In this document: piece after piece, positions 1,589 to 19,166 of the stretch
Layout of the letters: each line of letters opens with the position of its first letter
How positions within the stretch are numbered: position 1 is the first letter of the stretch
Assembly (NCBI GenBank): GCA_020024985.1
Contig: JAHHSW010000003.1
Location: forward strand, 1 to 19,784
Length of the DNA: 19,784 nt
Source of the DNA: Anaeroplasmataceae bacterium
Lineage (GTDB): Bacteria; Bacillota_I; Bacilli_A; Acholeplasmatales; Anaeroplasmataceae
Direction of reading: 5' to 3'
Translations under genes and position numbers: made by a program
The notes under the pieces: generated by a model
Database searches by the model: none
Told to the model about the DNA's origin: nothing
Seen by the model: only the letters and a program-made list of their open reading frames with translations

Positions 1589-2068
1589 TTATTTATGATA
1601 TGTTTCATTATTATTTATCTTAAATGCTCTATAAATTTGCTCAAGCAAAATAACCTGCATAAGTTGATGTGGAAATGTCATTTTAGAAAAGCAAAGCTTA
1701 TAATCCACCGTATCAATAACCTTTTTTGCTATACCTAATGACCCTCCAATTATAAAGGAAATATGTGAAGAATTATAGGAAAAAACATTACTAATTTTGC
1801 TAGCAAGCTCCTCACTTGATAGCATTTCTCCACGTAAATCTAAGGCTATTTTATAGCTATTTTGAGGGATAAGCTTTAATATTTTTTCTCCCTCCTTATT
1901 CTTTACGATTTCAATTTCCTTTTGACTTGGGTTATCACATATTGGCTCATCTGAGGCACTTAAAAACTCAATTTTAGTATATTTAGATAATCTTTTTGAA
2001 TACTCATTTATAGCATCCCTTAAATACTTTTCCTTGATGCTACCAATAGAAATTATACTTATTTTCAT
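1589..2068 (-). CDS. rlmH: 23S rRNA (pseudouridine1915-N3)-methyltransferase RlmH
   Basis: SPOUT-class methyltransferase that methylates pseudouridine 1915 in helix 69 of 23S rRNA on the 70S ribosome. The 159-aa protein matches the family end to end: MKISIISIGSIKEKY at the N-terminus, LDLRGEMLSSEELA (77-90), the SAM-binding knot loop FIIGGSLG (105-112), SKMTFPHQLMQVILLEQIYRA, and the invariant C-terminal YHK. Its ATG overlaps the stop of walJ (ATGA), so the two are translationally coupled. A walJ-near-rlmH arrangement is also known from Bacillus (yycJ ... yydA). Nothing is unusual in length or key motifs. Confidence 0.97.
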   Translation of the reverse strand: MKISIISIGSIKEKYLRDAINEYSKRLSKYTKIEFLSASDEPICDNPSQKEIEIVKNKEGEKILKLIPQNSYKIALDLRGEMLSSEELASKISNVFSYNSSHISFIIGGSLGIAKKVIDTVDYKLCFSKMTFPHQLMQVILLEQIYRAFKINNNETYHK

Positions 2069-2904
2069 ACAATAAATTCTCCTGATGCTGATGGTCTTAA
2101 AATTACAAATTCTATATTGTCTGTAGGGATTCCATAGTCCTTAAAAACCTTACCTCTTGTAAGCTCTAGAACTCTACTTAAATTGCATTCCTGAGAAATA
2201 TGGGCATGCATAACAAGCTTAGTTTTAGGGCCAATAACATTACATAATGTAACCATGCTATCCTCATTTGACATATGGCCATGCTCCGATAAAATACGCA
2301 TTTTTAACGGGTACGGTCTAGAGGAATGCATAAGAATTTCTGGGTCATGATTACTCTCTAAAATATAAGCCTCAGCATTGTTTATAAATGGGTAAAGGCT
2401 CTGGTGAACATAGCCTGTATCAGTTATATAAACAAGCTTCTTTTCACCCTCATGAAACACAAAGCCAATCGATTCTGCCGCATCATGAAATGTAGGAAGA
2501 ATATTAACTAATACATCATCTAAAGCTACATCCGGGTACAAAATAGAGTCTTTTATTCGACTAATTAAATGAATTTCTCCAGCCCTATACTTCTTTTCTA
2601 AAAGCTCACATTGCTTAACCTTTGAGCTATTTTTGTATATTGCATAAATTGCATTAAAGGCACCCTTAGAAAGATAAATATGAAGCCCATCAACCTTTAA
2701 AAGCATAGCTAAGCCCTTAATGTGATCTATATGCTCATGGGTAATAAAAAGAGCATTCACATCATTTATGCTTAGATTATAGTTTGATAAATTTAAATCT
2801 ATTTGCCTTTTAGATATTCCTGCATCTATTAAAATGTTTAAATTATTAGCTCTAAGAAGGGTACAATTTCCTTCTGAGCCACTTGAAAATACTACAATAT
2901 TCAT
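2065..2904 (-). CDS. walJ: WalJ/YycJ-type metallo-beta-lactamase-fold hydrolase
   Basis: Cytoplasmic MBL-fold protein of the YycJ/WalJ group, in Firmicutes linked to the WalRK cell-wall regulon and proposed to act as a DNA 5'-exonuclease affecting cell division and DNA repair; the exact role is not settled. From the start chosen here (279 aa) it shows FSSGSEGNC (6-14), LIDAGIS (25-31), and the zinc motif HEHIDH (His56, His58, Asp60, His61), then further metal-ligand regions around FHDAAESIGF, ITDTGYV and a late SEHGHMS and MHAHISQE. An upstream in-frame ATG at 2922 is possible, but it has no ribosome binding site and coincides with the transcription start predicted from the TATAAT at 2928-2933; the ATG at 2904 has GAGG 5 nt upstream and starts the conserved fold. 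First gene of the operon; overlaps rlmH. Confidence 0.93.
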   Translation of the reverse strand: MNIVVFSSGSEGNCTLLRANNLNILIDAGISKRQIDLNLSNYNLSINDVNALFITHEHIDHIKGLAMLLKVDGLHIYLSKGAFNAIYAIYKNSSKVKQCELLEKKYRAGEIHLISRIKDSILYPDVALDDVLVNILPTFHDAAESIGFVFHEGEKKLVYITDTGYVHQSLYPFINNAEAYILESNHDPEILMHSSRPYPLKMRILSEHGHMSNEDSMVTLCNVIGPKTKLVMHAHISQECNLSRVLELTRGKVFKDYGIPTDNIEFVILRPSASGEFIV

Positions 2905-2927
2905 AATAACCTCACTAATCATAGGCT

Positions 2928-3108: not shown

Positions 3109-3154
3109 ATTATGTGCTATGGTTTAAAAAAATTAGAAAAGGAGTTCAGTATTA

Positions 3155-6100
3155 ATGAGTAAGAAAATTAACAATACACCGCGAAGATTATTGACTGCCT
3201 CAATGTCTGTTGCGTTATTAATATCTTTATCATCATGTTCTGGAGCTGTTAATACAAGTGGTAGCCTAGATGTTAACAAGGAATATGCTAAATCAGGCAA
3301 TTATAATGTAACATATGGTGAGCTTTGGAACGAGTTACAGTGGAATGCAAACACTGTGCTTAGTGAGCAAATAACTAATGTAGTCTTAAACAAATACGTT
3401 ACAAATGTAAACACAGTAATTAATAAAGACTATAAGGACCTTACTGATGATGAAAAGAAAAACCTAGGCCTAACTGAGAATGAGTCAGATAAGGAGGCTA
3501 AATTTGCAAAGCTAAAGAATCACTATAAGGACAGATTAGTTGATTATGTTGTACAGGATATTTATGAGCAAAGCTTCAATAAGGATGGCTATTGGTCAAC
3601 CATATCTAAGCTAAAGCCTGTAAAGAATGAGGTTTCAATTGAAAAGTACATCGATCAAATGTACACTGATCATCATATGTACTATGGTGATAGCAGAGAT
3701 TCTTTCAAGAATTTATTAATCGATGCTTGGAAGCTAGACAAGGAAAATGAAGAGGAGCTTAATACAGCTAAGGCTAAGTACCTAGAGGTTGCTAATGCCT
3801 ATAAGGATGTTTATTATCCACTTCTTGCCAAGGAGCTTTTAGCATTTGCTGATCTTCAAGAGGATATCGATAAGGCCTATAAGGAGGACGACGATAAGGA
3901 TGATGATAAGGATGGTTACTTCACCCATTCTCAATTCAAGACAGCCCTTGAGGAAAAGTACACTAACACATATGATTTAAATATGGTTATGATCAGATTT
4001 ACATCTGAGGAGGAATTCCAAAATACATTACGTGCTTTTGGTTTAAAGGTTTATAATAAGAAATTCTACTTCATCCAGGATGCTAAGGATAGTACAGAAA
4101 GCATCCCATATGAAGAGTATATCGATAGATATGATGAAATAACTGCTAGCTCAGATTTCACAAATCAAAATGGTGTACAACCTGTAAATAGCAATGCCTT
4201 ATTAGAAATCTATATTCAAATGTATAACTATATTTATGGTGGATATAGAGAAACTCTAAAGACAAGCTATAATCAAGATTTCAATGATATCAATGAACTA
4301 AGAGCATTAACAAAGAAAATAATCAATGATTATGCAAGTGATGATGCACAGGATAAGTATATTGCTCTTAAGGATAGCTTAATGGCTAACAATAGTAAGG
4401 AAACTACCTTTACCTCTAAAGATCTTGATAAGATTTCATCTTCATTAAAGAATTATCTATATGAGACTCTTGATGACAACAAGCCTTATTCTACATCTAC
4501 TCAATCTGCAAACGGTGGATACTATGTAGCCTATAAGTTTGAGGATCAAATGGATGAAATAACTGATGAAACTACTAAGAAGTATGAGGAATATTTCAAA
4601 AACGATCCAGATGTTACTTCATTTGAGGTAATGGAAAAGATTAAAGAGGATGAAAAGGTATATAATGAATTACTAGAGGAATTAAAGTTTGATCAATTAA
4701 ATGATTCATTAATTTCTACTGCTCTTAATGAAAAGACTAAAGAGGTTACAGTAAAGATTTATAATGAGCCTCTAGAAATAGCTTATAAGAAGGATCATCC
4801 TGATTATTCTAAGACTCTTGGTAAGCCTTCAAATAAAAATCTATTAGCTACAATTGAGTATGAAAAGCAAACAAAGAACCTAAACATTGTTGCAGACGCA
4901 AACGATAAGAAGGCACTTAAGACAATCAATGGCGAGGCTATTGGTGCCTTTGATGTTTTAGAAAAGAAATTAGGTCCAACTGTTTCTATCGATTTATTAG
5001 CTGATAAGATTGTAAAGGATAACCCTAAATATCAAGAATCATTAAAGGATAAGGAAACTATTAAATACTATAATGATTATCTAGAAATGCTATTAGTTAA
5101 TTTTGCAGCTGGTGGCTTAGCTCAACAGGGCTATGATGCAGCATTAGGTAAGTACAATTTCTTAATGCTTTACTTCCATACTGCTGATGTAAAGAAGATT
5201 ATAAATGATACATTCCTAGTTCAATATACAGCACAAAAGCTTTTAACAGATTATTCAAGCAAATCACTTGCTGAGTTCTTTAATAAGTACACTGATGTAG
5301 CTTATGATAACTACTTCTCATTAAGTGGTACAAGATTAGTTGTATATATGGATAAGGATGATGACAACATTCCAGATGAGACAAGCACAAACTGGGCAGA
5401 TGAAACTGTTACATTTGAAGGTGGCGAGTGCACATTAGAGTATGTTGCAAAGTCATTAATATTCAAGGTATATACAAAGCTAAGTGCTTCTTCAGCTTCA
5501 CATACTGATAGATTAAATCAATTAGTATCTGAAATTAACAATTCAGCAAGAGTTAACTTCCAGGATAACGTAATTGCTCCTGAAAATACATGGGCTGAAT
5601 ATAGACACCTAGGCTTAAAGGTTAAGACTGAGGAATTCTCAGCTACAAACTCAGATGTTGATATTGATAGAAACCTAAAGGATCGTTTATATGGATATGC
5701 AACAGGTCAAAGTGTTACTAACCCAGATAAGAAGTATGAATACTTTAAGAATGGCGAGGCTCCTACAATCTATATGGAACCACTAAATAAGGTTGATTCA
5801 TTAAAGGCAGATAATGATGATATCCTAAAGACTAATGATGGCTACAACCTAATCTTAGTTACAACTGGTTCAAAGAAGCCTTCAGCTAAATGGGAAGACA
5901 AGGATAATTTATTTAAGGATTTCTCAATTAAGTACAATAATCATTATGTAACTGATATTGATGGAATTTCTAATGAAACTGATAAATTAAATCTTAACCA
6001 AATAAGATTATACATTTTAGATAATGCAGTTAACGGTTCATCAAAGCTATCTCCAGCTTCTACTTCATCTGCATTAACTACATTCCTACAACCAGTTCTA

Positions 6101-6358
6101 TCAAGATACAATAGTGCTGAAACACAAAGAATTATCTTATTAAACTTCATAAAGCTTTCGACTAATAATAGTGAGCTTACATTTGATGATAGTAAGACTA
6201 ACGATTATTTAAAGAATGTGATTGAAATTAGTCAAAAGATAGTTGATGACTACAACACAATCTATGATGATCCAAGAACAAATATTTTCCCTGATTGGTG
6301 GAAGGAATTAAATGAACAAGTTTCAAAATTCTTAACTAATAAGGAAGAGGTGAAGTAA
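3155..6358 (+). CDS. Very large lipoprotein, PrsA/SurA-like foldase relative (paralogue 1)
   Basis: 1067 aa. A basic N-terminus, hydrophobic stretch 12-25 and lipobox LSSC (Cys28) mark a lipoprotein anchored on the outer face of the membrane. After it, NVTYGELWNELQ resembles the start of PrsA/SurA N-domains. Two stretches have the beginning and end of a parvulin-like fold: 273-465 (LNMVMIRFTSEEEF ... GGYYVAYKF) and 726-905 (TRLVVYMDKDDDN ... KTNDGYNLILV). The second lacks both histidines usually found in parvulins (Arg727 and Asn898 at those places). Residues 249-260 resemble an EF-hand loop, and 733-742 a DxDxDxxPDE calcium-type loop. The rest is charged, helical and rich in Lys, Asp, Asn and Tyr. 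It is followed 2 nt later by a paralogue aligning along most of its length. Likely an extracytoplasmic chaperone or surface protein; the foldase link is inference from weak similarity, and enzymatic activity is doubtful here. Confidence 0.85.
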   Translation: MSKKINNTPRRLLTASMSVALLISLSSCSGAVNTSGSLDVNKEYAKSGNYNVTYGELWNELQWNANTVLSEQITNVVLNKYVTNVNTVINKDYKDLTDDEKKNLGLTENESDKEAKFAKLKNHYKDRLVDYVVQDIYEQSFNKDGYWSTISKLKPVKNEVSIEKYIDQMYTDHHMYYGDSRDSFKNLLIDAWKLDKENEEELNTAKAKYLEVANAYKDVYYPLLAKELLAFADLQEDIDKAYKEDDDKDDDKDGYFTHSQFKTALEEKYTNTYDLNMVMIRFTSEEEFQNTLRAFGLKVYNKKFYFIQDAKDSTESIPYEEYIDRYDEITASSDFTNQNGVQPVNSNALLEIYIQMYNYIYGGYRETLKTSYNQDFNDINELRALTKKIINDYASDDAQDKYIALKDSLMANNSKETTFTSKDLDKISSSLKNYLYETLDDNKPYSTSTQSANGGYYVAYKFEDQMDEITDETTKKYEEYFKNDPDVTSFEVMEKIKEDEKVYNELLEELKFDQLNDSLISTALNEKTKEVTVKIYNEPLEIAYKKDHPDYSKTLGKPSNKNLLATIEYEKQTKNLNIVADANDKKALKTINGEAIGAFDVLEKKLGPTVSIDLLADKIVKDNPKYQESLKDKETIKYYNDYLEMLLVNFAAGGLAQQGYDAALGKYNFLMLYFHTADVKKIINDTFLVQYTAQKLLTDYSSKSLAEFFNKYTDVAYDNYFSLSGTRLVVYMDKDDDNIPDETSTNWADETVTFEGGECTLEYVAKSLIFKVYTKLSASSASHTDRLNQLVSEINNSARVNFQDNVIAPENTWAEYRHLGLKVKTEEFSATNSDVDIDRNLKDRLYGYATGQSVTNPDKKYEYFKNGEAPTIYMEPLNKVDSLKADNDDILKTNDGYNLILVTTGSKKPSAKWEDKDNLFKDFSIKYNNHYVTDIDGISNETDKLNLNQIRLYILDNAVNGSSKLSPASTSSALTTFLQPVLSRYNSAETQRIILLNFIKLSTNNSELTFDDSKTNDYLKNVIEISQKIVDDYNTIYDDPRTNIFPDWWKELNEQVSKFLTNKEEVK
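3893..3916 (+). repeat. Tandem 12-bp repeat inside the EF-hand-like loop of lipoprotein 1
   Basis: GATAAGGATGAT is followed directly by GATAAGGATGGT (one mismatch). The in-frame duplication encodes DKDD-DKDG and builds the acidic run at residues 247-254. Looks like a replication-slippage product and could vary in copy number between strains. Confidence 0.7.
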
Positions 6359-6360
6359 TC

Positions 6361-9342
6361 ATGAAACTAAAAAGATTATTTTTAGGCGCTGGAATTGCAA
6401 TTCTAGGTGTTTCATTAGCTTCTTGTTCAGAAAAAGAAATAAGAAATACTACAACACCTTATGGCGCATTATATAACCAATTAGACAAAGAAATTGCTAC
6501 TGCTAATAATGGCAAGAGCAAGATGACAGTTGGTACTTATTACAACAAACTAAAATCTCTAGGCTATGACAAGGTTTCAACTGCAATTAATTCAAGACTT
6601 TATGAACCAGAAATTAAAGCTCTTAAGGCCCTTTTAACAAAAGAAAATTTAAATGATTATAAGGATGCCCTAACAATTAAAATTGAAGGCAAGGATGGTG
6701 CCTCACTTTATGAATTAACTGAGGAAAAGATAGCTGAGCTTCGCCGTGAGCTTTTAGAGGAAATCAACCTAGTTATCGCTACAAAGGTTTATGGAACTGC
6801 TGATTTTGAGGCAATTTCTAAGAAGACTCCTATGGAAATGAATAAGGCTATTCAATCATTCATTGATTCTCAAGCTAAGATAGGTATTTTCCTTGAGGAG
6901 GCTGATTTAAAGAATTACTTAATTCCTACAGATTCAAATTATGAATTAAATAAGGAAAAGAAGCTAATTCAATTTAAGAAGGAAACTCTTGATAAGCTAG
7001 AGCCTGCAGTTGATGCAGTTATTCTAGAGCAAGCAAAGCTTCTTTCTGCAAAGAAGGCATTATTCCAAATTGCTGAAAAGGAATATATTACTAAGACTGT
7101 TGAAGAAAATGGTAAGGACGTTGAAAAGACAGTAAAGAATGATTACTATATTTTCAAGGATTCAAACTATAAGTCTGAGTATGAAAGAACCTTTAAGACA
7201 TATGGTACCTATAATGCTATAGTTATTCAATTCAACTCATTAAAGGAAGCACAAGCTGCATTAAAGGCTAACCCTATTGATACATCATCATTAGAAAATG
7301 CTAAAAAGAGCTATGCTAACCTTTATAATATGTACTACAAGTACAAAACACCTGCAAACACTAGTGCAGATGATCCTATTCATATTTATGAGGTAAACGA
7401 ATTTAAGGATGACTTTGCTGATTTACCAGCAAGCGTATCTACATTAATTAAATCAACATTAAAGGATGATGAATACCTTACAGAGCCTAGAAATGTTAAT
7501 AATAAGTATGTATTAGCATTTAGAGGAAAAACAGTTTATTCTGTTAGTGAGGATAAGGATGAAACTGATTACAATGATTTAACTGAGGCACAAAAGGACA
7601 AGTACCTTCCTAAGATTAAGGAAGCCTTAATTGATTCAAATGCTAAGTCATATCAAGCAACTGATTATCAAAAGAAGCTTGAGGATGCTAAGCTTAAGAT
7701 TTATGATCCATATTTCGAATATAAGTTTGAATATGAGAACGCAAGCTTCTATGATCATGTAACTGAGGTTACTAAGCCAGAAAGCAATCTAATCTTTGAG
7801 ATGGAAGGCTCAAGCGCATATACAGTAGATCAATTCTTTGTAGATGCTTCAGATAGCTATGCTTCTTCTATTCTAGTAGATTACTTCCAGCTTGATTATG
7901 CAAATCAATATTATAATGATTATGTAGACCTTCATTTAATAAATAAAGATGCTAAGAAGGATAATAAGAAGGCTTTAGATGAGGCTATTAAGGCATTTAA
8001 CTCAAATAAGAATTCAACATATCCTGCTGAAATTGGGCTTGAGACATTCCTAATTGCTAACTATGGTTATGCAAACAAGGATGAGGTATTAAAGTACTAT
8101 TATGATGCAAAGTCTGCATTAACAACCTATAAATCAATCGTAGTATTTGATCAATGGGCTACTGAGGATCATAAGATTAATACTGAAAAGACTAATATTT
8201 TAAATAACATTCTAGAAACTGGTAATAAGACTTATAATGATATTTTCAATATAAATCTAGACCATCTATTAATCAACATTGACGATAATGGTGATGGCCA
8301 ACCAGATGATCCAGATGATTTCTTCCAAAAGAATCCAAGTATAAAGGCTGACTTTGAGCAAGCTGTAGCAAATTTAGCTCAAGCTATCTATACTGAGGCA
8401 GTAAATGAAGCCTATAAGAACAATACTTTATTTGAAACATTAACTTATATTAAGAGCCAATATGAAGAGGGTGGCGCTATTCTATCTCAGCCTGGTAAGA
8501 CATGGGATGACTTCAAGAATGATGATAAGAATGGTCATTTCAACTTCCTATTAACAGTTGAGCAGCTAGCTTCAAATGGTGATATTACTCAAGATTCAGT
8601 TAATAACTTCGTAACTCCATTCAAGGATTATGTTAAGAATATTTATAAGACTGCTAGCAACAATAAGGATTTACCTAAGGAATTTGATAATGGTACCTTC
8701 TACATTGTTTCTGGTAGTGGTGAATCATTAACAGGTGAGCAATTAACTACACCTGAGCAAGCTACAAAGATTACTAATGAAACATTATGTAAGACAAACT
8801 TTGGTTACCATCTATTAGTTTTAAATAGCTTCAGTGGTCCAAAGTCAACTAAGTATACTGAGAATGACGATGCTGGTGGATTCCAAAAGGATCTTCAAAT
8901 CGTACTTCGTAAGTATGAGGATGCAGATAACCAGGATAAGAACGAAATTGTTTATATTAACACTTCTTCTTATAACCAAAATGATAATCAAGCTTCATTC
9001 GAGCAATTATTCATTTACTATGTACAACAAGCAAATGGTGTTGATTCATCATTAGACTCAGATGTTAAGCAAATTATGAGCTCATTATTTGATAACGCTA
9101 TTAGTACATATAAGTCTTCTAATTTCCAAACCTTCCTACTTCTAAGATTATTAAATGTTCAAATTAATGATCTTGCATTATTCAGTGCTACTGATAGTGT
9201 AAATAAGGATTATAAGATTAATACTAAGGCTGTTTCAGCTGAAATTGAAAATCTAAAGAATCAAATCATTTCATATGATCAAAATTCTCCTTATGTAGCA
9301 TGGGTTACAGATATGGACTGGACAAGACCAGATTCAAAGTAA
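6361..9342 (+). CDS. Very large lipoprotein, PrsA/SurA-like foldase relative (paralogue 2)
   Basis: 993 aa. Signal peptide with lipobox LASC (Cys22). MTVGTYYNKLKSLGYDKV near residue 55 resembles the PrsA/SurA N-domain start. Parvulin-like segments: 284-390 (YNAIVIQFNSLKEAQ ... NNKYVLAFRGK) and 633-822 (LDHLLINIDDNGDG ... KTNFGYHLLVLNSF). The second keeps both positions typical of parvulin histidines, His635 in strand 1 and His817 in the FGYH motif, so a prolyl-isomerase activity is conceivable. A DxNxDGxPDD loop (641-650) directly after strand 1 looks like a thrombospondin-type-3/dockerin-type calcium site. The matching segments occur in the same order as in the preceding gene, indicating tandem duplication and divergence. 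It begins 2 nt after that gene, with GAGGTGA inside the upstream coding end, and is followed by two terminators. Lgt, needed to lipidate it, is encoded at 17568-19166. Confidence 0.85.
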   Translation: MKLKRLFLGAGIAILGVSLASCSEKEIRNTTTPYGALYNQLDKEIATANNGKSKMTVGTYYNKLKSLGYDKVSTAINSRLYEPEIKALKALLTKENLNDYKDALTIKIEGKDGASLYELTEEKIAELRRELLEEINLVIATKVYGTADFEAISKKTPMEMNKAIQSFIDSQAKIGIFLEEADLKNYLIPTDSNYELNKEKKLIQFKKETLDKLEPAVDAVILEQAKLLSAKKALFQIAEKEYITKTVEENGKDVEKTVKNDYYIFKDSNYKSEYERTFKTYGTYNAIVIQFNSLKEAQAALKANPIDTSSLENAKKSYANLYNMYYKYKTPANTSADDPIHIYEVNEFKDDFADLPASVSTLIKSTLKDDEYLTEPRNVNNKYVLAFRGKTVYSVSEDKDETDYNDLTEAQKDKYLPKIKEALIDSNAKSYQATDYQKKLEDAKLKIYDPYFEYKFEYENASFYDHVTEVTKPESNLIFEMEGSSAYTVDQFFVDASDSYASSILVDYFQLDYANQYYNDYVDLHLINKDAKKDNKKALDEAIKAFNSNKNSTYPAEIGLETFLIANYGYANKDEVLKYYYDAKSALTTYKSIVVFDQWATEDHKINTEKTNILNNILETGNKTYNDIFNINLDHLLINIDDNGDGQPDDPDDFFQKNPSIKADFEQAVANLAQAIYTEAVNEAYKNNTLFETLTYIKSQYEEGGAILSQPGKTWDDFKNDDKNGHFNFLLTVEQLASNGDITQDSVNNFVTPFKDYVKNIYKTASNNKDLPKEFDNGTFYIVSGSGESLTGEQLTTPEQATKITNETLCKTNFGYHLLVLNSFSGPKSTKYTENDDAGGFQKDLQIVLRKYEDADNQDKNEIVYINTSSYNQNDNQASFEQLFIYYVQQANGVDSSLDSDVKQIMSSLFDNAISTYKSSNFQTFLLLRLLNVQINDLALFSATDSVNKDYKINTKAVSAEIENLKNQIISYDQNSPYVAWVTDMDWTRPDSK

Positions 9343-9353
9343 TTAAATAACTA

Positions 9354-9386
9354 AGAGGTATTAGCTTTGCTAATGCCTCTTTTTTT
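9354..9386 (+). terminator. Strong rho-independent terminator after the lipoprotein operon
   Basis: AGAGGTATTAGC (9354-9365) pairs with GCTAATGCCTCT (9369-9380), 12 pairs with one G-U, loop TTT, then T7. It begins 11 nt after the stop codon of paralogue 2. Confidence 0.92.
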
Positions 9387-9946: not shown

Positions 9947-10369
9947 ATGAATTTTTTTAAGAAATTATTAGCTGATAAGAGCTATGGTTTTTATGTAACT
10001 ATCGCATTATCAGTACTAGCTGTAATCACTGCTATTATTTACAATGTTGTTTATGGTGGATCAAGAGATTACAATTTATTTGCAAACATTTGTTTGTATT
10101 TATGCTTAATACCTTTAGTATTAGCCTTCATCAAGCCAGCTTCAAAGATTAGCCATTACGTTTTATATGGTTTAGTTCTTCTAGCATTCTTAGGATATGT
10201 TATGGGTATTTACCTATACGTTTCAGAGGTTTTTGTTGGAATTGATGAGCATGAATTTAGCGCTCGCTTTATTTTATGCACAATTTTATTTACTATCACA
10301 CTAGTTTGTGGTACAGCAAATTGCTTTTTTAAACAAGCTAAGGAGGAAATAGCAGATGAGCAAGAGTAA
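9947..10369 (+). CDS. Four-helix membrane protein coupled to the GH3 enzyme
   Basis: 140 aa, no family recognised. Four hydrophobic segments at about residues 13-36, 43-62, 68-95 and 104-128, a short basic N-terminus (MNFFKKLLADK) and an acidic C-terminal tail (KQAKEEIADEQE), which predicts both ends in the cytoplasm. The ATG follows an AAGGGG-type site. Its last 14 nt overlap the GH3 gene, and the strong AAGGAGG used by GH3 lies inside this gene, so the two are translated together. The tight coupling suggests a membrane partner for the anchored glycosidase (assembly, stability or uptake of products); that is inference from context only. Nothing suggests it is a complete transporter by itself. 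Confidence 0.88.
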   Translation: MNFFKKLLADKSYGFYVTIALSVLAVITAIIYNVVYGGSRDYNLFANICLYLCLIPLVLAFIKPASKISHYVLYGLVLLAFLGYVMGIYLYVSEVFVGIDEHEFSARFILCTILFTITLVCGTANCFFKQAKEEIADEQE

Positions 10370-13364
10370 TTTAATAATAAAAATTGGTATGGTTTCATCA
10401 TCATTATTATTTGGTGTTGCATTAACCGGTACCAACATTGCAAGAGCTAATAGAACAGCTATTTCTAATGAGCTAGGTACTCCAACCTTTGAAATCATTC
10501 AAAAGGAGGATGGAGAAAAGGTAGATAATGTCTACTATAAATCAAAATACACAAAGCTAGGTGGCCAAGATGGCTTAATCCAAGCTGGTAAGAATATGTG
10601 TAAGGAAATTGAAGAGGAGGGTGCTGTATTACTTGAAAATAGGAATAATGCCCTACCTCTTAAGGAAGGAACTAAGGTATCATTATTTGGTACTGCTTCA
10701 TTCCGTATTTCAGTAGGTGGACGTGGTTCCTCTCATACAAGAAATCCACAGCCTGCTACAAGCCTAAAGGAGGCGCTAGAAAATGCTGGACTTCAGGTTA
10801 ATAATGTTCTTAATGATTTCTACGATGAAAAATATAATACAGTAGATGGTAAGAATAAGCCTTATCAGCCAAGTGGCTGGACACACCATACTAATGATGT
10901 TCCATTTAGTGAAATTCAAGCTAACAAGGAAGCCTATGATTCTATTAAGGAATATGGTGATGTTGCAATATTCACTGTAACTCGTATGGGTGGTGAATCA
11001 AACGATCTACCTACAAAGGGGAGTGAGGGTATTGATGGAGACTTCTTAAATTTAACTGAGAAGGAAGCATCAGTTCTACAGGGCTTAGGCCAATTAAAGA
11101 AAAATGGTGTAATCAAGAAGATTGTAGTTTTATTAAATACTACTAACCAAATCCAAACTAGCTCACTAAACAAGCCTGAATATGGTATCGATGCTACTAT
11201 GTGGATTGGTCATGTCGGAATTACTGGTACTGAGGCTATCGGTGAAATTCTTACTGGTAAGAAGAGCCCATCTGGACATCTATCAGATACCTTCTGGTAT
11301 AAGCATACTGATAATCCAGTATTACAAAATCAGGGTGTATTCACTTATGCTAATAGAGGAGATTTCCCAGAGCTTCCTGAGGCTTCAAAGGGCAGGGGTG
11401 GAAATAGCGATAAGTACGGTACCTACGTTGCCTACCAAGAGGGTGTATATTTAGGCTATAGATATTCTGAGACCAGATATACAGATGTTATCACTAAGAG
11501 AGAAAACGCTGGTGAATTTGATTACAATAAGGTAATTAGTGCACCATTCGGCTTTGGCTTATCTTATACAGACTTCAGCTTCAGCGATTTCAATGTCGAA
11601 AGAAATGGTAAGGACTTTGTTGTAACTGTTAAGGTTACTAACACAGGCACTGAATACCATGGTAAGGATGTAGCTCAAATTTATCTACAAAAGCCTTATA
11701 GCAATTTTGATATCGAGCGTGGAATTGAAAAGCCAGCTGTAGAGCTTGTTGGCTATGCTAAGACAGATGAGCTAGCTCCAAATGCAAGCCAAACTCTTAC
11801 TATCCCAGTATCTGGTGAATGCCTAAGAGTTTATGATAGAAAGGTTAGCCAAACCTACATTGTAACTGAGGGTAAGTATTTATTTACTGCTGCTCATGAC
11901 GCTCATGATGCTGCTAATAACTTCCTAGCACATGAGGGCTACTCTAAGAAGGATGGTATGACTAGTGATGGTAATAAGAACCTAGTTAAGTCATTCAACC
12001 AAAAGTTCGATGAGGAAACATATTCACATTCTAGAGGAACTGGTCATAAGATTCATAATCTATTTGATCATTCTGATATTAATTCATATGAGGGTAATAC
12101 TCTTGACTTCTTATCAAGAAGCAATTGGACAAAGCCTTTAGCTAAGGATTTAAAGCTTACTAAGGAAATGGTTGATTTAATCCTTAAGCAAGAGGATTCA
12201 AGCTCAATTCAAAAGGATGATGGCAAGTATCCAACCTATGGTGCAGAAAACAATCTACAGCTTATCGACCTATTAATGGATGAAGACAAGAATCCAATTA
12301 GCTATGACGATCAGCTTTGGGATAAGTTCCTAGACCAGCTAACCTGGGAAGAAACTGTAAAGCTAGTATCATTAGGCTTAAGATGTAGTGCTGGCCTTGA
12401 TAGATTAGGTAAACCACAAACTAAGGATCACAATGGTCCTACAGGATTAACTCAAAAGTATAATGAGGATAAGCGTGGTCTTGCTGCTACAACTAATGAC
12501 CCAGACGGTGATAAGGCTCCAGTCTACTATCCATCAATTCCAGTTTTAGCTGCTACATTCAATAAGGATGTTGCAAAGAGATTTGGTGAATGTCTTGGTG
12601 AGGATGCTTTATGGGCAGGCTATAATGGCTTCTATGGTATCGGCTTAAATTCACACCGTTCTCCATATGAGGGACGTCATTTCGAATACTTCAGTGAGGA
12701 TCCATTCCTAGCTGGTACATTAGCTACTGAAGAGGTTCTTTCATTACAGGCTAAGGGCTGCAACGCTTATATTAAGCACTTCGCTTTAAATGATCAGGAA
12801 AGCCAACGTAGTGGTATTCAGGTTTGGTCAAATGAGCAAGCATTACGTGAAATTTCATTAAGACCTTATGAATATGCAGTAATTGATGGTCATGCAGTTC
12901 ATGCTATGGCATCATTCAGCCGTATCGGTCTTGAGCTATGTCCTGCTTCTCATGCCCTTCTTACTGACTACCTACGTGGTGAGCTTGGTATGACAGGCTT
13001 CGTTGTAACAGATATGTATTCAATTGGTTATAAGGAAGAGCAAATGCCAGCATTCCTAATGGCAGGCTGTGATTTACCAGATGGTGAATTAGGAACAAAG
13101 GTTGCTAATCCATTTAATGACTTTAAGAGTGGATATTCAAATGTTGCATGGCAAATGAGAGAGGCTTGTAAGCGTACAATGTACTCTACACTTCATTCAA
13201 ATGCTATGAATGGCATTGATAGTAATACAATTATGAGAGCAATCACTCCAACATGGGAGGTTGCTGCTATTACAGGTACATCAATTCTTGGTGTAATCTT
13301 TGGTGGATTCACTATTTGGTGTGCAGTTGCTATCTTCCTAGATTATAGAAGAAAGCACATTTAA
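10356..13364 (+). CDS. Domain-permuted glycoside hydrolase family 3, membrane anchored
   Basis: 1002 aa, beta-glucosidase-type GH3 with the domains in reversed order. A signal-like N-terminus (hydrophobic 10-24, possible cleavage after ARA31) is followed by the alpha/beta-sandwich domain usually found C-terminal (about 60-405; GAVLLENRNNALPL start, GGES with Glu214 as candidate acid/base, FGFGLSYTDF end), a fibronectin-III-like domain (about 410-500; VTVKVTNTG, VAQIYLQKP), a linker, then the TIM-barrel domain (about 640-900; DHNGPTGLT, KHFALNDQE with Lys807-His808, and GFVVTDMYS with nucleophile Asp886). A hydrophobic segment at 973-995 plus YRRKHI anchors the C-terminus. Permuted GH3 enzymes are known, for example in Butyrivibrio and Ruminococcus; the terminal anchor is less usual. 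Retention of catalytic residues suggests activity on glycosides outside the cell; the precise sugar cannot be told. Strong SD AAGGAGG inside the preceding gene. Confidence 0.93.
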   Translation: MSKSNLIIKIGMVSSSLLFGVALTGTNIARANRTAISNELGTPTFEIIQKEDGEKVDNVYYKSKYTKLGGQDGLIQAGKNMCKEIEEEGAVLLENRNNALPLKEGTKVSLFGTASFRISVGGRGSSHTRNPQPATSLKEALENAGLQVNNVLNDFYDEKYNTVDGKNKPYQPSGWTHHTNDVPFSEIQANKEAYDSIKEYGDVAIFTVTRMGGESNDLPTKGSEGIDGDFLNLTEKEASVLQGLGQLKKNGVIKKIVVLLNTTNQIQTSSLNKPEYGIDATMWIGHVGITGTEAIGEILTGKKSPSGHLSDTFWYKHTDNPVLQNQGVFTYANRGDFPELPEASKGRGGNSDKYGTYVAYQEGVYLGYRYSETRYTDVITKRENAGEFDYNKVISAPFGFGLSYTDFSFSDFNVERNGKDFVVTVKVTNTGTEYHGKDVAQIYLQKPYSNFDIERGIEKPAVELVGYAKTDELAPNASQTLTIPVSGECLRVYDRKVSQTYIVTEGKYLFTAAHDAHDAANNFLAHEGYSKKDGMTSDGNKNLVKSFNQKFDEETYSHSRGTGHKIHNLFDHSDINSYEGNTLDFLSRSNWTKPLAKDLKLTKEMVDLILKQEDSSSIQKDDGKYPTYGAENNLQLIDLLMDEDKNPISYDDQLWDKFLDQLTWEETVKLVSLGLRCSAGLDRLGKPQTKDHNGPTGLTQKYNEDKRGLAATTNDPDGDKAPVYYPSIPVLAATFNKDVAKRFGECLGEDALWAGYNGFYGIGLNSHRSPYEGRHFEYFSEDPFLAGTLATEEVLSLQAKGCNAYIKHFALNDQESQRSGIQVWSNEQALREISLRPYEYAVIDGHAVHAMASFSRIGLELCPASHALLTDYLRGELGMTGFVVTDMYSIGYKEEQMPAFLMAGCDLPDGELGTKVANPFNDFKSGYSNVAWQMREACKRTMYSTLHSNAMNGIDSNTIMRAITPTWEVAAITGTSILGVIFGGFTIWCAVAIFLDYRRKHI

Positions 13365-15775: not shown

Positions 15776-16507
15776 TTACTTATTGTCTTTAAAATTAGCA
15801 TCAATAAATAGCTTAGCATTATTTACTACACTTTGAATTAAGCTCTTACTTAAGCTATCAGCAAATAATCCCTTTTCCTTATCATCAGCAGTAGTAAAGT
15901 TTTCAATAAATCTATCACCATTTACTAAAGATAAAATTGTAGTAAGCTCAGATTTACCACCATTAAACTTTGAATCACTAAAAATTGACATATTATCAGA
16001 AGCTTGGTTATCCTGGGTATCAACAATATAAAGCTTTACCTTATAGTCGCCATCATATAAATTGATTGAATCCTGAAGGAATATTAGATACTCAAGAATA
16101 GACTCATGGTTCTTATCCTTTAAATCAGTTTCATTTTGCATTAAGGTCTTTGGATAGAACTTAGATAAATCAGTTGCAAAAACAAATACATAATCAATGA
16201 AGGTAGACTCAAAGTTAGGGTTTGTATGCATTGCTACCTCTGCATAGCTAGCCTTCTCAAAGTTAACCTTTCTTTCTTCACTAGTATTCTTATCCTTGTA
16301 AGTATACTCCATTGCGAAATAATCCTCAACCTTAGGCTCAGAATTTGTATTAGAATTACCCTTTAAACCAAATACTAATCCTAACACTAATGCGATGATA
16401 GCTACTACACCACATGAAATACCAATCCAAAAATTCTTATTATATAATATACCCTTCTTTTGACCACGAACGGCCTTTCCAGATACCTTTCTAACTACAC
16501 GTGCCAA
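15776..16507 (-). CDS. Single-pass membrane protein with extracytoplasmic domain, unknown function
   Basis: 243 aa, no family recognised. The N-terminus is very basic (MARVVRKVSGKAVRGQKKG), followed by one transmembrane helix at about 26-48, then an Asn/Ser-rich linker and a soluble domain, giving an N-in, C-out topology. The soluble part has a strand-helix-strand pattern (DYVFVFATDLSKFYP at 105-119; helix ILEYLIFLQDSINLY; YKVKLYIVDTQDN at 155-167) reminiscent of a thioredoxin fold, but no cysteine lies in it; the only Cys (32) is in the membrane helix. Thus it would be at most a non-redox relative, and this is a tentative idea. The start is TTG at 16507, with AAGGAG about 10 nt upstream; the nearby ATG runs straight into a TAA, so TTG is the only sensible start. 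Lies between whiA and tex, separated by hairpins on both sides. Confidence 0.8.
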   Translation of the reverse strand: MARVVRKVSGKAVRGQKKGILYNKNFWIGISCGVVAIIALVLGLVFGLKGNSNTNSEPKVEDYFAMEYTYKDKNTSEERKVNFEKASYAEVAMHTNPNFESTFIDYVFVFATDLSKFYPKTLMQNETDLKDKNHESILEYLIFLQDSINLYDGDYKVKLYIVDTQDNQASDNMSIFSDSKFNGGKSELTTILSLVNGDRFIENFTTADDKEKGLFADSLSKSLIQSVVNNAKLFIDANFKDNK

Positions 16508-17567: not shown

Positions 17568-19166
17568 CTACTCCACACAAATAGTGATTAAATCATTTAG
17601 CCTATTAATAACATAGTCTGGCTCAGCCTCTAGCATTATCTCAGGCTTCTTTATATATAAGCAGCCTATAGAATGAACACCAGCAGCCTTTGCTGACGCC
17701 ATATCGTTTAGAGTGTCACCAACATAAGCAACATTCCTTACCTCCTTAATAGGTCTTCTAGTAAGCTTCTTAAACCATCTTAAAACCGGATTTAAGCCCT
17801 TTATTTCCTCTTGGAAGCTGTTCTCCTTATTAAGATTCATTTCCTTTAGCTTATCAACTGCTAATAAAATTCCATCTGGAGCTGGCTTATGGTTTTTAAC
17901 CTCATCAGCACCAATAATAATATCCATGAACTGATCAAGCTTAAATAGCTCTAATCCATGAATTACTAAATCAGTTTTCTTAGAGGAAACTACACCTAAA
18001 TTATAGCCCTTCTTATGAAGAGTCTTTAGGGTATCATAAGCACCATCAAAGACCTTAACAATCTCATCATGATGTGGAATATTCCACTCTCTATAGTACT
18101 TAATCATCTCTTCGATTTCCTTTTCATCATCACTATATCTACTAAAGCTTTGATATAGGGTAGGGCCAAAGAAGGAATCTATTTCATCATCAGTAAGCTG
18201 ATATCCTGGTCTAAACTTCTCAAAAACATGAATAAAGCTCTTATCAATTAAAGGCTTAGTATTTAATAGGGTTCCATCTAAATCAAATAATAGGGTATCA
18301 AGCTTATTTCCCTTAACCTTATTAACGATATCATAATAATTATCCTTAGGGCCTACAAATCTCTTTACTACTAGGAAGGTAATACCAGCCACAATAAAGA
18401 TTACACTTGTTAAAATTGATACCGGCACAGGTCCTAGCATTAATGGCTCATCAACACCACTTTGTAGACGTAGGCTCTCTGTAAATATTCTAACTATACC
18501 ATACCAAATACCATAAATACCAATAGTATCTCCACTCTTTAATAGGGTCTTAGACTTTCTTCTTAATACTAAAATAGTAATTAATCCTACTAAATTAAGT
18601 GAGCTTTCATATAAGAACACTGGGTGACGATAGTAACCATTTATAAGCATATTTGGACCTATAATAGGAATAGAGCCTAAAAAGCTTTGTCCCCATTCAG
18701 ATGTTACAATTGAGCCATATAGCTCATGGTTACAGAAATTACCCCATCTACCACAAATTTGACCAATTAATAAGCCTGGAGCTAGAATATCAAATACCTT
18801 ATATAAGGCAATTTTTCTTTTCCTACAATAAATATAAACAGTAATTAAGGTAACTATAACAGCACCCTGAATACCTAAGCCTGCCAAGCCCTCAAAGCGG
18901 CCATTTCTAAAGCCTAAAACCTCAAGGAAGCTATCAAAGCTAGAGATATTAAATAAAACATACCAAAGCCTAGCACCAATAATAGCTATGGGCAAGGTAA
19001 TTACTACTCCCATATATACATAATCAGAAGGTATACCTAATCGCTTACCCTCCTTAACACCCATTATAACCGCTAGTATTACACCAATAAGTATAAATAC
19101 TGCATACCAGGCTATTTCTAAGCCAAATATGCTAAATGTTGGATCAATCCATTGTGAAAGAAACAT
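17568..19166 (-). CDS. lgt: Fusion of prolipoprotein diacylglyceryl transferase (Lgt) with a PpaX-like HAD phosphatase
   Basis: 532 aa in one open frame. Residues 1-270 are Lgt, the membrane enzyme that moves diacylglycerol from phosphatidylglycerol to the lipobox Cys of prolipoproteins: several membrane helices, the Lgt signature GRWGNFCNHELYG (139-151), HPVFLYES (181-188) and RIFTESLR. A short linker (271-288) leads to a cytoplasmic HAD domain: motif I DLDGT (Asp295, Asp297), motif II SS (394-395), motif III Lys427 (KPAPDG), motif IV GDTLND (Asp484, Asp488). In Bacillus hprK, lgt and ppaX are separate neighbouring genes; PpaX hydrolyses pyrophosphate made when HprK dephosphorylates HPr-P. 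An extra basic segment (about 446-476, RWFKKLTRRP) precedes motif IV. The ATG shares one base with the hprK stop and has GGAGG inside hprK. Both halves keep catalytic motifs, so both should be active. Confidence 0.95.
   Translation of the reverse strand: MFLSQWIDPTFSIFGLEIAWYAVFILIGVILAVIMGVKEGKRLGIPSDYVYMGVVITLPIAIIGARLWYVLFNISSFDSFLEVLGFRNGRFEGLAGLGIQGAVIVTLITVYIYCRKRKIALYKVFDILAPGLLIGQICGRWGNFCNHELYGSIVTSEWGQSFLGSIPIIGPNMLINGYYRHPVFLYESSLNLVGLITILVLRRKSKTLLKSGDTIGIYGIWYGIVRIFTESLRLQSGVDEPLMLGPVPVSILTSVIFIVAGITFLVVKRFVGPKDNYYDIVNKVKGNKLDTLLFDLDGTLLNTKPLIDKSFIHVFEKFRPGYQLTDDEIDSFFGPTLYQSFSRYSDDEKEIEEMIKYYREWNIPHHDEIVKVFDGAYDTLKTLHKKGYNLGVVSSKKTDLVIHGLELFKLDQFMDIIIGADEVKNHKPAPDGILLAVDKLKEMNLNKENSFQEEIKGLNPVLRWFKKLTRRPIKEVRNVAYVGDTLNDMASAKAAGVHSIGCLYIKKPEIMLEAEPDYVINRLNDLITICVE

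Follow-up and report, generated by a model that had tools for sequence, protein, structure and literature searches.

What are the two giant lipoproteins encoded side by side in the genome of an Anaeroplasmataceae bacterium, and how do they relate to PrsA, the foldase that the available part of a review (PMC12445088) describes as present throughout Gram-positive bacteria and as indispensable to normally growing B. subtilis? The stretch in question, hereafter the window, comprises 19,784 nucleotides of the forward strand (positions 1 to 19,784 of contig JAHHSW010000003.1, assembly GCA_020024985.1). In it, gene A (3155..6358, + strand) encodes 1067 amino acids (aa) and gene B (6361..9342, + strand) 993 aa, and open reading frames (ORFs), family alignments and structural models lead us to annotate both products as putative double-PrsA lipoproteins. 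A preliminary description of this DNA had recognized two adjacent lipoproteins of these sizes, which the ORFs bear out, and had suggested that they are foldase-like duplicates, each with one N-domain followed by two degenerate parvulin-like segments. We found support for the foldase relation and the duplication, and propose a different domain plan: a fusion of two PrsA modules is the better reading of each chain, and profile comparisons support it well.

Homology of A and B and their relation to PrsA

By profile comparison, A and B are homologous. As single sequences, they resemble each other weakly in BLASTP (C-terminal part, E 2e-5; N-terminal part, E 0.001). We built profiles for the A family (A1; 95 of 100 matches plus window A, giving 96 sequences, with P0001, P0027, P0032, P0035 and P0036 left out), for the B family (A2; 81 of 87 sequences) and for single-copy relatives (A3). 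When A1 and A2 were compared with hhalign, for which all E-values given here refer to one comparison each, they aligned at E 3e-41 across 826 columns with 19 percent identity of aligned columns, compared with E 0.15 to 0.83 for controls in which the B alignment was column-reversed (n = 1) or column-shuffled (n = 5). By halves, first matched first (1e-20) and second matched second (2e-17), and crossed halves gave no match (E 0.3). The shared blocks noted earlier are collinear in both BLASTP and the profile alignment: LNMVMIRF (A) and YNAIVIQF (B), proposed as first parvulin-like starts, correspond to the first strands of parvulin 1, and the W of the TW(A/D) block is invariant in both families (W813 in A, W715 in B). 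The C-terminal D-W pair held in the BLASTP tail only and lies outside the profile alignment. Both proteins carry the lipoprotein signal with invariant Cys that is a trait of PrsA; the lipoboxes noted in the preliminary description are LSSC in A (3227..3238, +; Cys28 in 96/96 family sequences) and LASC in B (6415..6426, +; Cys22 in 81/81).

The link to PrsA runs through the single-copy relatives, which are more conservative. Our canonical PrsA alignment holds 13 sequences (~330 aa) of the class from 30 fetched loci, where a script found 18 ORFs (five outside 280-400 aa were dropped, and 12 loci gave none). The single-type profile compared with it consists of 20 rows from the order, by which we mean that of the Anaeroplasma bactoclasticum genome (A3 is 19 of these rows, L059 being left out), and a deeper single-copy profile was made from 40 of 140 sequences after redundancy filtering. 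In local mode, the single-copy profile matched PrsA twice in tandem, with columns 542-879 on PrsA 41-280 (9e-12) and columns 22-257 on PrsA 3-174 (4e-11); in global mode, which forces PrsA to full length, the matches covered columns 20-545 (3e-16) and 486-960 (6e-15). A profile of all 56 members likewise matched twice, both locally (481-814 at 2e-12; 13-470 against PrsA 10-329 at 5e-12) and globally (4e-18 and 7e-17). A reversed-PrsA control, run with four profiles in local mode only, gave E 0.1 or worse. With the deeper single-copy set cut apart, module 1 alone matched PrsA at 2e-8 locally and 6e-11 globally and module 2 at 8e-14 and 1e-16, and reversed-module controls in both modes stayed at E 0.045 or worse.

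The window's own families were weaker against PrsA than the single-copy profile: the whole A1 profile gave one match, on the module 1 side only (local 5e-7, global 2e-8), and A2 gave two (global 1e-9 and 3e-5). Local slices of B reached 9e-4 (module 1), 3e-6 (module 2) and 4e-4 (parvulin 2) and those of A 0.007 (module 1) and 0.03 (module 2), with the other three parvulin slices at E 0.018-0.18, the last of these values being that of A parvulin 1, which had no match. Compared directly with each other, modules 1 and 2 showed no detectable similarity in A, B or the single-copy family. Since the double-PrsA plan is found in the single-copy profile and homology ties A and B to it, we carry the plan over to the pair.

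Scans of A, B or profiles A1 and A2 against Pfam, NCBIfam and PDB sequences returned weak or chance matches only, and the curated parvulin models PF00639 and PF13616 matched neither A nor B and were absent from the families listed for the 19 single-type relatives. SurA_N_2 and SurA_N_3 each matched three of these 19 with E-values no higher than 0.1 (9e-4 and 0.004 at best, respectively). Among PDB sequences, the A3 profile found B. subtilis PrsA (4wo7) at E 5e-5, mainly through its N-terminal part; the next match, a toluene-tolerance protein at E 0.001, was taken as chance.

The predicted structures are confident (predicted local distance difference test, pLDDT, 87.7 for A and 90.1 for B). A fold search with the B model matched PrsA, PEB4, CBF2 and parvulins, and the A model matched PrsA and Par14 more weakly. 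No row was returned for A parvulin 1 or for B module 2 as a PrsA module, an absence that carries no evidence because one domain can fill the list. Together, single-copy profiles that match PrsA well above reversed controls and models that match PrsA argue for the suggested foldase relation.

On the + strand, putative module 1 of A (3272..4795, about aa 40-547, borders approximate) would combine an NC domain with parvulin-like domain 1 (3977..4546, aa 275-464), which has a long insertion and was placed by secondary structure order and family alignment; module 2 (4832..6334, about aa 560-1060), where six PrsA entries align at aa 558-1025, would contain parvulin domain 2 (5318..5869, aa 722-905). 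Seven PrsA entries align across module 1 of B (6475..7740, aa 39-460), which includes parvulin domain 1 (7204..7539, aa 282-393), and module 2 (7789..9153, about aa 477-931, borders approximate) includes parvulin domain 2 (8248..8835, aa 630-825), placed by model and profile alignment. Both proteins have the NC chaperone domain flanking a parvulin that is a PrsA trait, and at 993 and 1067 aa with two modules they depart from the PrsA norm of about 300-350 aa with one parvulin.

Active sites, acidic loop and duplication

Canonical PrsA has both the HILI and the GYH histidine in 13/13 sequences. Within the pair, the two are retained in one of four parvulins, parvulin 2 of B, where H635 (codon 8263..8265, +, at the H of PrsA HILI) and H817 (codon 8809..8811, +, at the H of PrsA GYHII) occur in 81/81. 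Parvulin 2 of A has neither in 96/96, with R727 (90/96) and N898 (95/96) at these positions, and by family alignment the first parvulins of A and B are without both, A286 (70/81) and Y383 (81/81) standing there in B. The earlier view that the parvulin-like segments are degenerate therefore fails for B parvulin 2. The third active-site position of parvulins, Asp or Cys, is not clearly conserved in B. Parvulin 2 keeps the histidine pair in 18/18 single-copy tree proteins and in both copies of L055:7552-13410 (genome G160), a separate tandem duplication inside the single-copy group. Since single-copy proteins, this independent pair and B all have the histidines, the ancestor would by parsimony have possessed a histidine-bearing parvulin 2, kept in B and lost in A. 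According to the available part of PMC12524980, several streptococcal, lactococcal and enterococcal PrsA proteins lack the first His, and PrsA of streptococci, lactococci or enterococci can have a hydrophobic residue in its place and Tyr in that of the second His.

Directly after the first strand of parvulin 2 lies a DxDxDGxxD-type loop (A, in the form DxDxDxxxD, 5351..5377, aa 733-741; B, 8281..8307, aa 641-649; both +). The acidic loop of the preliminary description was thus rightly placed in the second parvulin, and its character is corrected here to that of a conserved motif. The strict pattern D.[DN].[DN]G..D occurs in 81/81 B, 41/96 A, 34/40 single-copy and 0/13 PrsA sequences, with less than one sequence per set expected from shuffling; a looser pattern fits 81 B, 78 A, 39 single-copy and 2 PrsA sequences of the same sets, where shuffling would yield about 10-11 in A and in B. 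The window's own A fits the looser pattern and lacks the strict one, and throughout the A family the first and last Asp are present (96/96). Because the loop is conserved even where the histidines are gone, it is probably structural, and it may bind Ca2+.

Of 49 genome loci surveyed, 47 have B after A, and in the other two the contig ends. For the single-copy type, 20 stretches were fetched from the order: 18 contain one relative (946-1089 aa), L055 has its tandem pair, and L056 repeats locus L049. An unrooted tree, built by a quick method from 56 of the 111 ORFs that reach at least 850 aa, with L056 (second copy of L049) left out, sets A, B and single-type rows apart by one branch each (SH-aLRT 99, 99 and 91); 12 of its 56 rows, including window B, failed the composition test, and the L049 B branch is long. 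The A and B subtrees are largely mirrored, and such mirrored paralogue clades at one locus support the duplication suggested earlier, for which tandem duplication of a single-copy gene is the simplest reading.

Distribution and gene neighbourhood

A limit of the family to the window did not hold, as relatives were found throughout the order and beyond. Among 160 genomes of the order scanned, 121 are matched by the A profile and 124 by the B profile. Where the pair is missing, both profiles match one and the same gene in many genomes; 18 of the 20 listed (of 39) A-profile misses have genomes of 0.3-0.9 Mb. PF00639 and PF13616 each matched 0/160 genomes, with a positive B. subtilis control. In the class (395 genomes), the A profile matches 102, many of them outside the order weak and partial, and PF00639 matches 148, the two together in one genome versus 38 expected; the exception, G190, has a weak A match (E 4e-4), and the Fisher p of 1e-23 for this exclusion is overstated because the pattern is clade-wise. 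The giant family apparently stands in for PrsA in Anaeroplasma/Acholeplasma relatives, as judged from these scans.

Genome G190 also has two canonical PrsA-like genes in tandem (L118:7171-9206; ORFs of 350 and 325 aa), a possible picture of the pre-fusion state. Of 20 stretches fetched from outside the order, 19 contain giants (23 ORFs of 811-1193 aa), which adjoin a metallo-beta-lactamase (MBL)-fold gene in 11/19 loci and stand in tandem in four (L100, L104, L105, L116). The strict loop pattern is present in 10/23 of these giants, and a plain PrsA hidden Markov model matches 9/23 at 23-48 bits.

Penicillin-binding proteins (PBPs) are among PrsA clients according to the available part of PMC12445088. 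PBP transpeptidases (PF00905) were detected in 22/160 genomes of the order, 20 of them with the A family, and in 16/55 outside-order A-positive genomes, G190 included (genome completeness is not stated for either set). Since giants occur in genomes with and without detected PBPs, PBP folding is unlikely to be the sole reason for their existence. The names shown for relatives of A and B are 'hypothetical protein' or lipoprotein (Anaeroplasma sp., Acholeplasmatales proteins and similar), and the titles and abstract beginnings covered by our literature searches yielded no description of a double-PrsA giant family. A literature match to prsA in PMC11535214 was rejected, as in the part of that paper available the name denotes ribose-phosphate pyrophosphokinase.

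Within the window, A and B are co-oriented with 2 bases between them (A stop 6356-6358, B start 6361). Shine-Dalgarno-like sequences, AGGAG for A (3140..3144, +, 10 bases upstream of its ATG) and GAGGTG for B (6347..6352, +, within the 3' end of A), precede the genes, and a terminator-like hairpin of 13 pairs with a T tail (9353..9381, +) lies directly 3' of B. Between 2900 and 10400, terminator-like sites number 7 versus a mean of 2.4 in shuffles, and promoter-like sites show no excess over shuffles. Given the 2-base gap, the ribosome-site-like motifs and the hairpin after B, A and B look like an operon of two genes that diverges from an MBL-fold gene (2065..2922, -), which by position we take to be WalJ/YycJ-like, and from rlmH (SPOUT methyltransferase; 1589..2068, -), both recognized as conserved neighbours by domain scan and locus comparison. 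The MBL gene is 46-475 bases away in 44/49 loci, and the remaining five contigs start at A or at most 220 bases from it. In five loci (L039, L041, L042, L043, L047), B is followed by MBL and rlmH in the same orientation, and in the others shown these two genes are divergent from A. Single-copy relatives adjoin the MBL gene in 18/18 loci; 16 of these show rlmH on its far side, and in two the contig ends. Neither the Rfam nor the tRNA scan of the window gave a match.

Elsewhere in the window, CinA (1108-1572) is present as its C-terminal domain alone (154 aa, PF02464). A GH3 glycosidase (10356-13364) has a swapped domain order, with Glyco_hydro_3_C (91-368) and an Fn3-like domain (438-512) before the Glyco_hydro_3 N-domain (725-907), and a terminal hydrophobic stretch was spotted by eye. 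A membrane-anchored-looking protein without a Pfam match (15776-16507) adjoins the Tex gene, as do its matches in many of the 49 loci, and one ORF (17568-19166) combines prolipoprotein diacylglyceryl transferase (LGT) with a HAD phosphatase, its matching ORFs adjoining WhiA and HprK in several relatives.

Proposed function, alternatives and known systems

We propose that A and B are probably membrane-anchored extracytoplasmic foldases with two fused PrsA modules per chain. One chain would then hold the content of a PrsA homodimer, two NC chaperone domains and two parvulins, and module fusion would make the PrsA-type dimer permanent. Clients emerging from the membrane would be held in a cleft formed by the NC domains; prolyl isomerisation, if any, would fall to parvulin 2 of B, with A as a holdase partner, and the DxDxD loop would stiffen its parvulin by binding Ca2+. 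The later gene duplication may have let catalysis stay in B and holding in A, and the pair would likely fill in this lineage the role that PrsA has in other Bacilli. Homology, pairing and the histidine pattern are observed and the fusion is well supported; what we infer is the shape of the dimer, the split of tasks between A and B, the binding of metal and the range of clients. In the available parts of two sources, B. subtilis PrsA forms a bowl-shaped dimer thought necessary for chaperone work (PMC12445088), and the N-terminal hairpin-helix of E. faecium PpiC is swapped between chains (PMC12524980).

It is unlikely that the chains instead follow a SurA-like plan, with one N-domain, two successive parvulins and a C-terminal segment closing the N-domain. 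In the fold search, rows for SurA and LIC12922 span all of A, so that some A rows still fit the domain plan first suggested, and the fold matches are middling with a large root-mean-square deviation. However, in the single-copy family each half yields a PrsA match by itself, beginning N-terminally with a hairpin and helix and closing with C-terminal helices. In the models, module 2 opens with a strand or hairpin and a long helix (A 563-622, B 477-515), and the same fold rows would result if the first hairpin were docked on the second module as it is in the PrsA swap. We consider it very unlikely that A and B are PrsA-derived surface proteins that lost foldase function and are now structural or adhesive lipoproteins. 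The proteins are large and highly diverged and three of four parvulins are without the histidine pair, but pairing and locus are constant, B keeps its histidines in 81/81, and no other rotamase was found in the order by the PF00639 and PF13616 scans of 160 genomes. Lost histidines are no argument against a foldase because, in the available part of PMC12445088, active-site mutations of B. subtilis PrsA leave secretion almost intact, and the essential function is proposed to lie in the NC domain.

As for the history of the pair, we see a real, if lesser, possibility that the A/B duplication predates the divergence of the single-copy lineage and that this lineage then lost B, or that A and B are separate PrsA fusions. 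The midpoint root of the otherwise unrooted tree groups single-copy rows with A, the A profile gives these rows about double the score that the B profile does, tandem pairs occur outside the order too, and A-B identity is low, at 19 percent. On the other hand, single-copy rows share B's histidines and not A's loss, and the rate of evolution may simply be higher in B; the A-B alignment runs the full length of the chains instead of module by module, which disfavours separate fusions.

We tentatively sketch a wider picture, doubtful as a whole, in which a branch of Bacilli (Anaeroplasma/Acholeplasma relatives and neighbours) swapped PrsA for single-chain PrsA dimers with a Ca2+ loop, and one branch doubled these again so that isomerisation lies with B and holding with A, perhaps in a four-module cage round emerging clients. 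The core clients would not be PBPs, because the replacement is common to genomes with and without detected PBP transpeptidases, and Mpn444-like giant essential mycoplasma lipoproteins may be distant kin.

We regard this as a foldase-derived family with a new architecture and a wide distribution, present also in genomes without a detected PBP transpeptidase. In a lineage without a detected canonical rotamase, the work of the foldase would fall to a duplicated, fused double PrsA that retains the histidine pair in a single parvulin out of four. Nature thereby offers a test of what PrsA cannot do without: the NC cleft or catalysis, the dimer or the monomer. Under this reading, a large set of 'hypothetical proteins' would also gain a function.

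Among known systems, Mpn444 (PDB 9gn0), an essential giant lipoprotein of Mycoplasma pneumoniae that we take to belong to the MG307-MG309-MG338 lipoproteins, shows a weak partial fold match to A and B and no sequence match from the A1, A2 or A3 profiles; a scan with DUF3713 (PF12506), which we presume may be its family, was uninformative, matching neither 149 genomes nor the controls. SurA of E. coli and the SurA-like PEB4, CBF2 and LIC12922 resemble the pair in their SurA-N-like NC domain. SurA, too, has two parvulins, one of them inactive, but these are served by a single NC domain, whereas each parvulin of A and B appears to have its own. Two PrsA-like N-terminal starts per chain by profile speak against SurA membership, while the fold rows for SurA and LIC12922 that span all of A still fit it. 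From the PrsA of Bacilli (B. subtilis PrsA, 4wo7; E. faecium PpiC, 9ibn), A and B differ in having two modules in chains of ~1000 aa versus ~330 aa, a tandem gene pair, a DxDxDGxxD loop in the second parvulin (strict in 0/13 PrsA, looser in 2/13) and sequences that Pfam rotamase models do not recognise. With that same PrsA they share the lipobox, an NC domain with inserted parvulin, and matches in both profile and fold.
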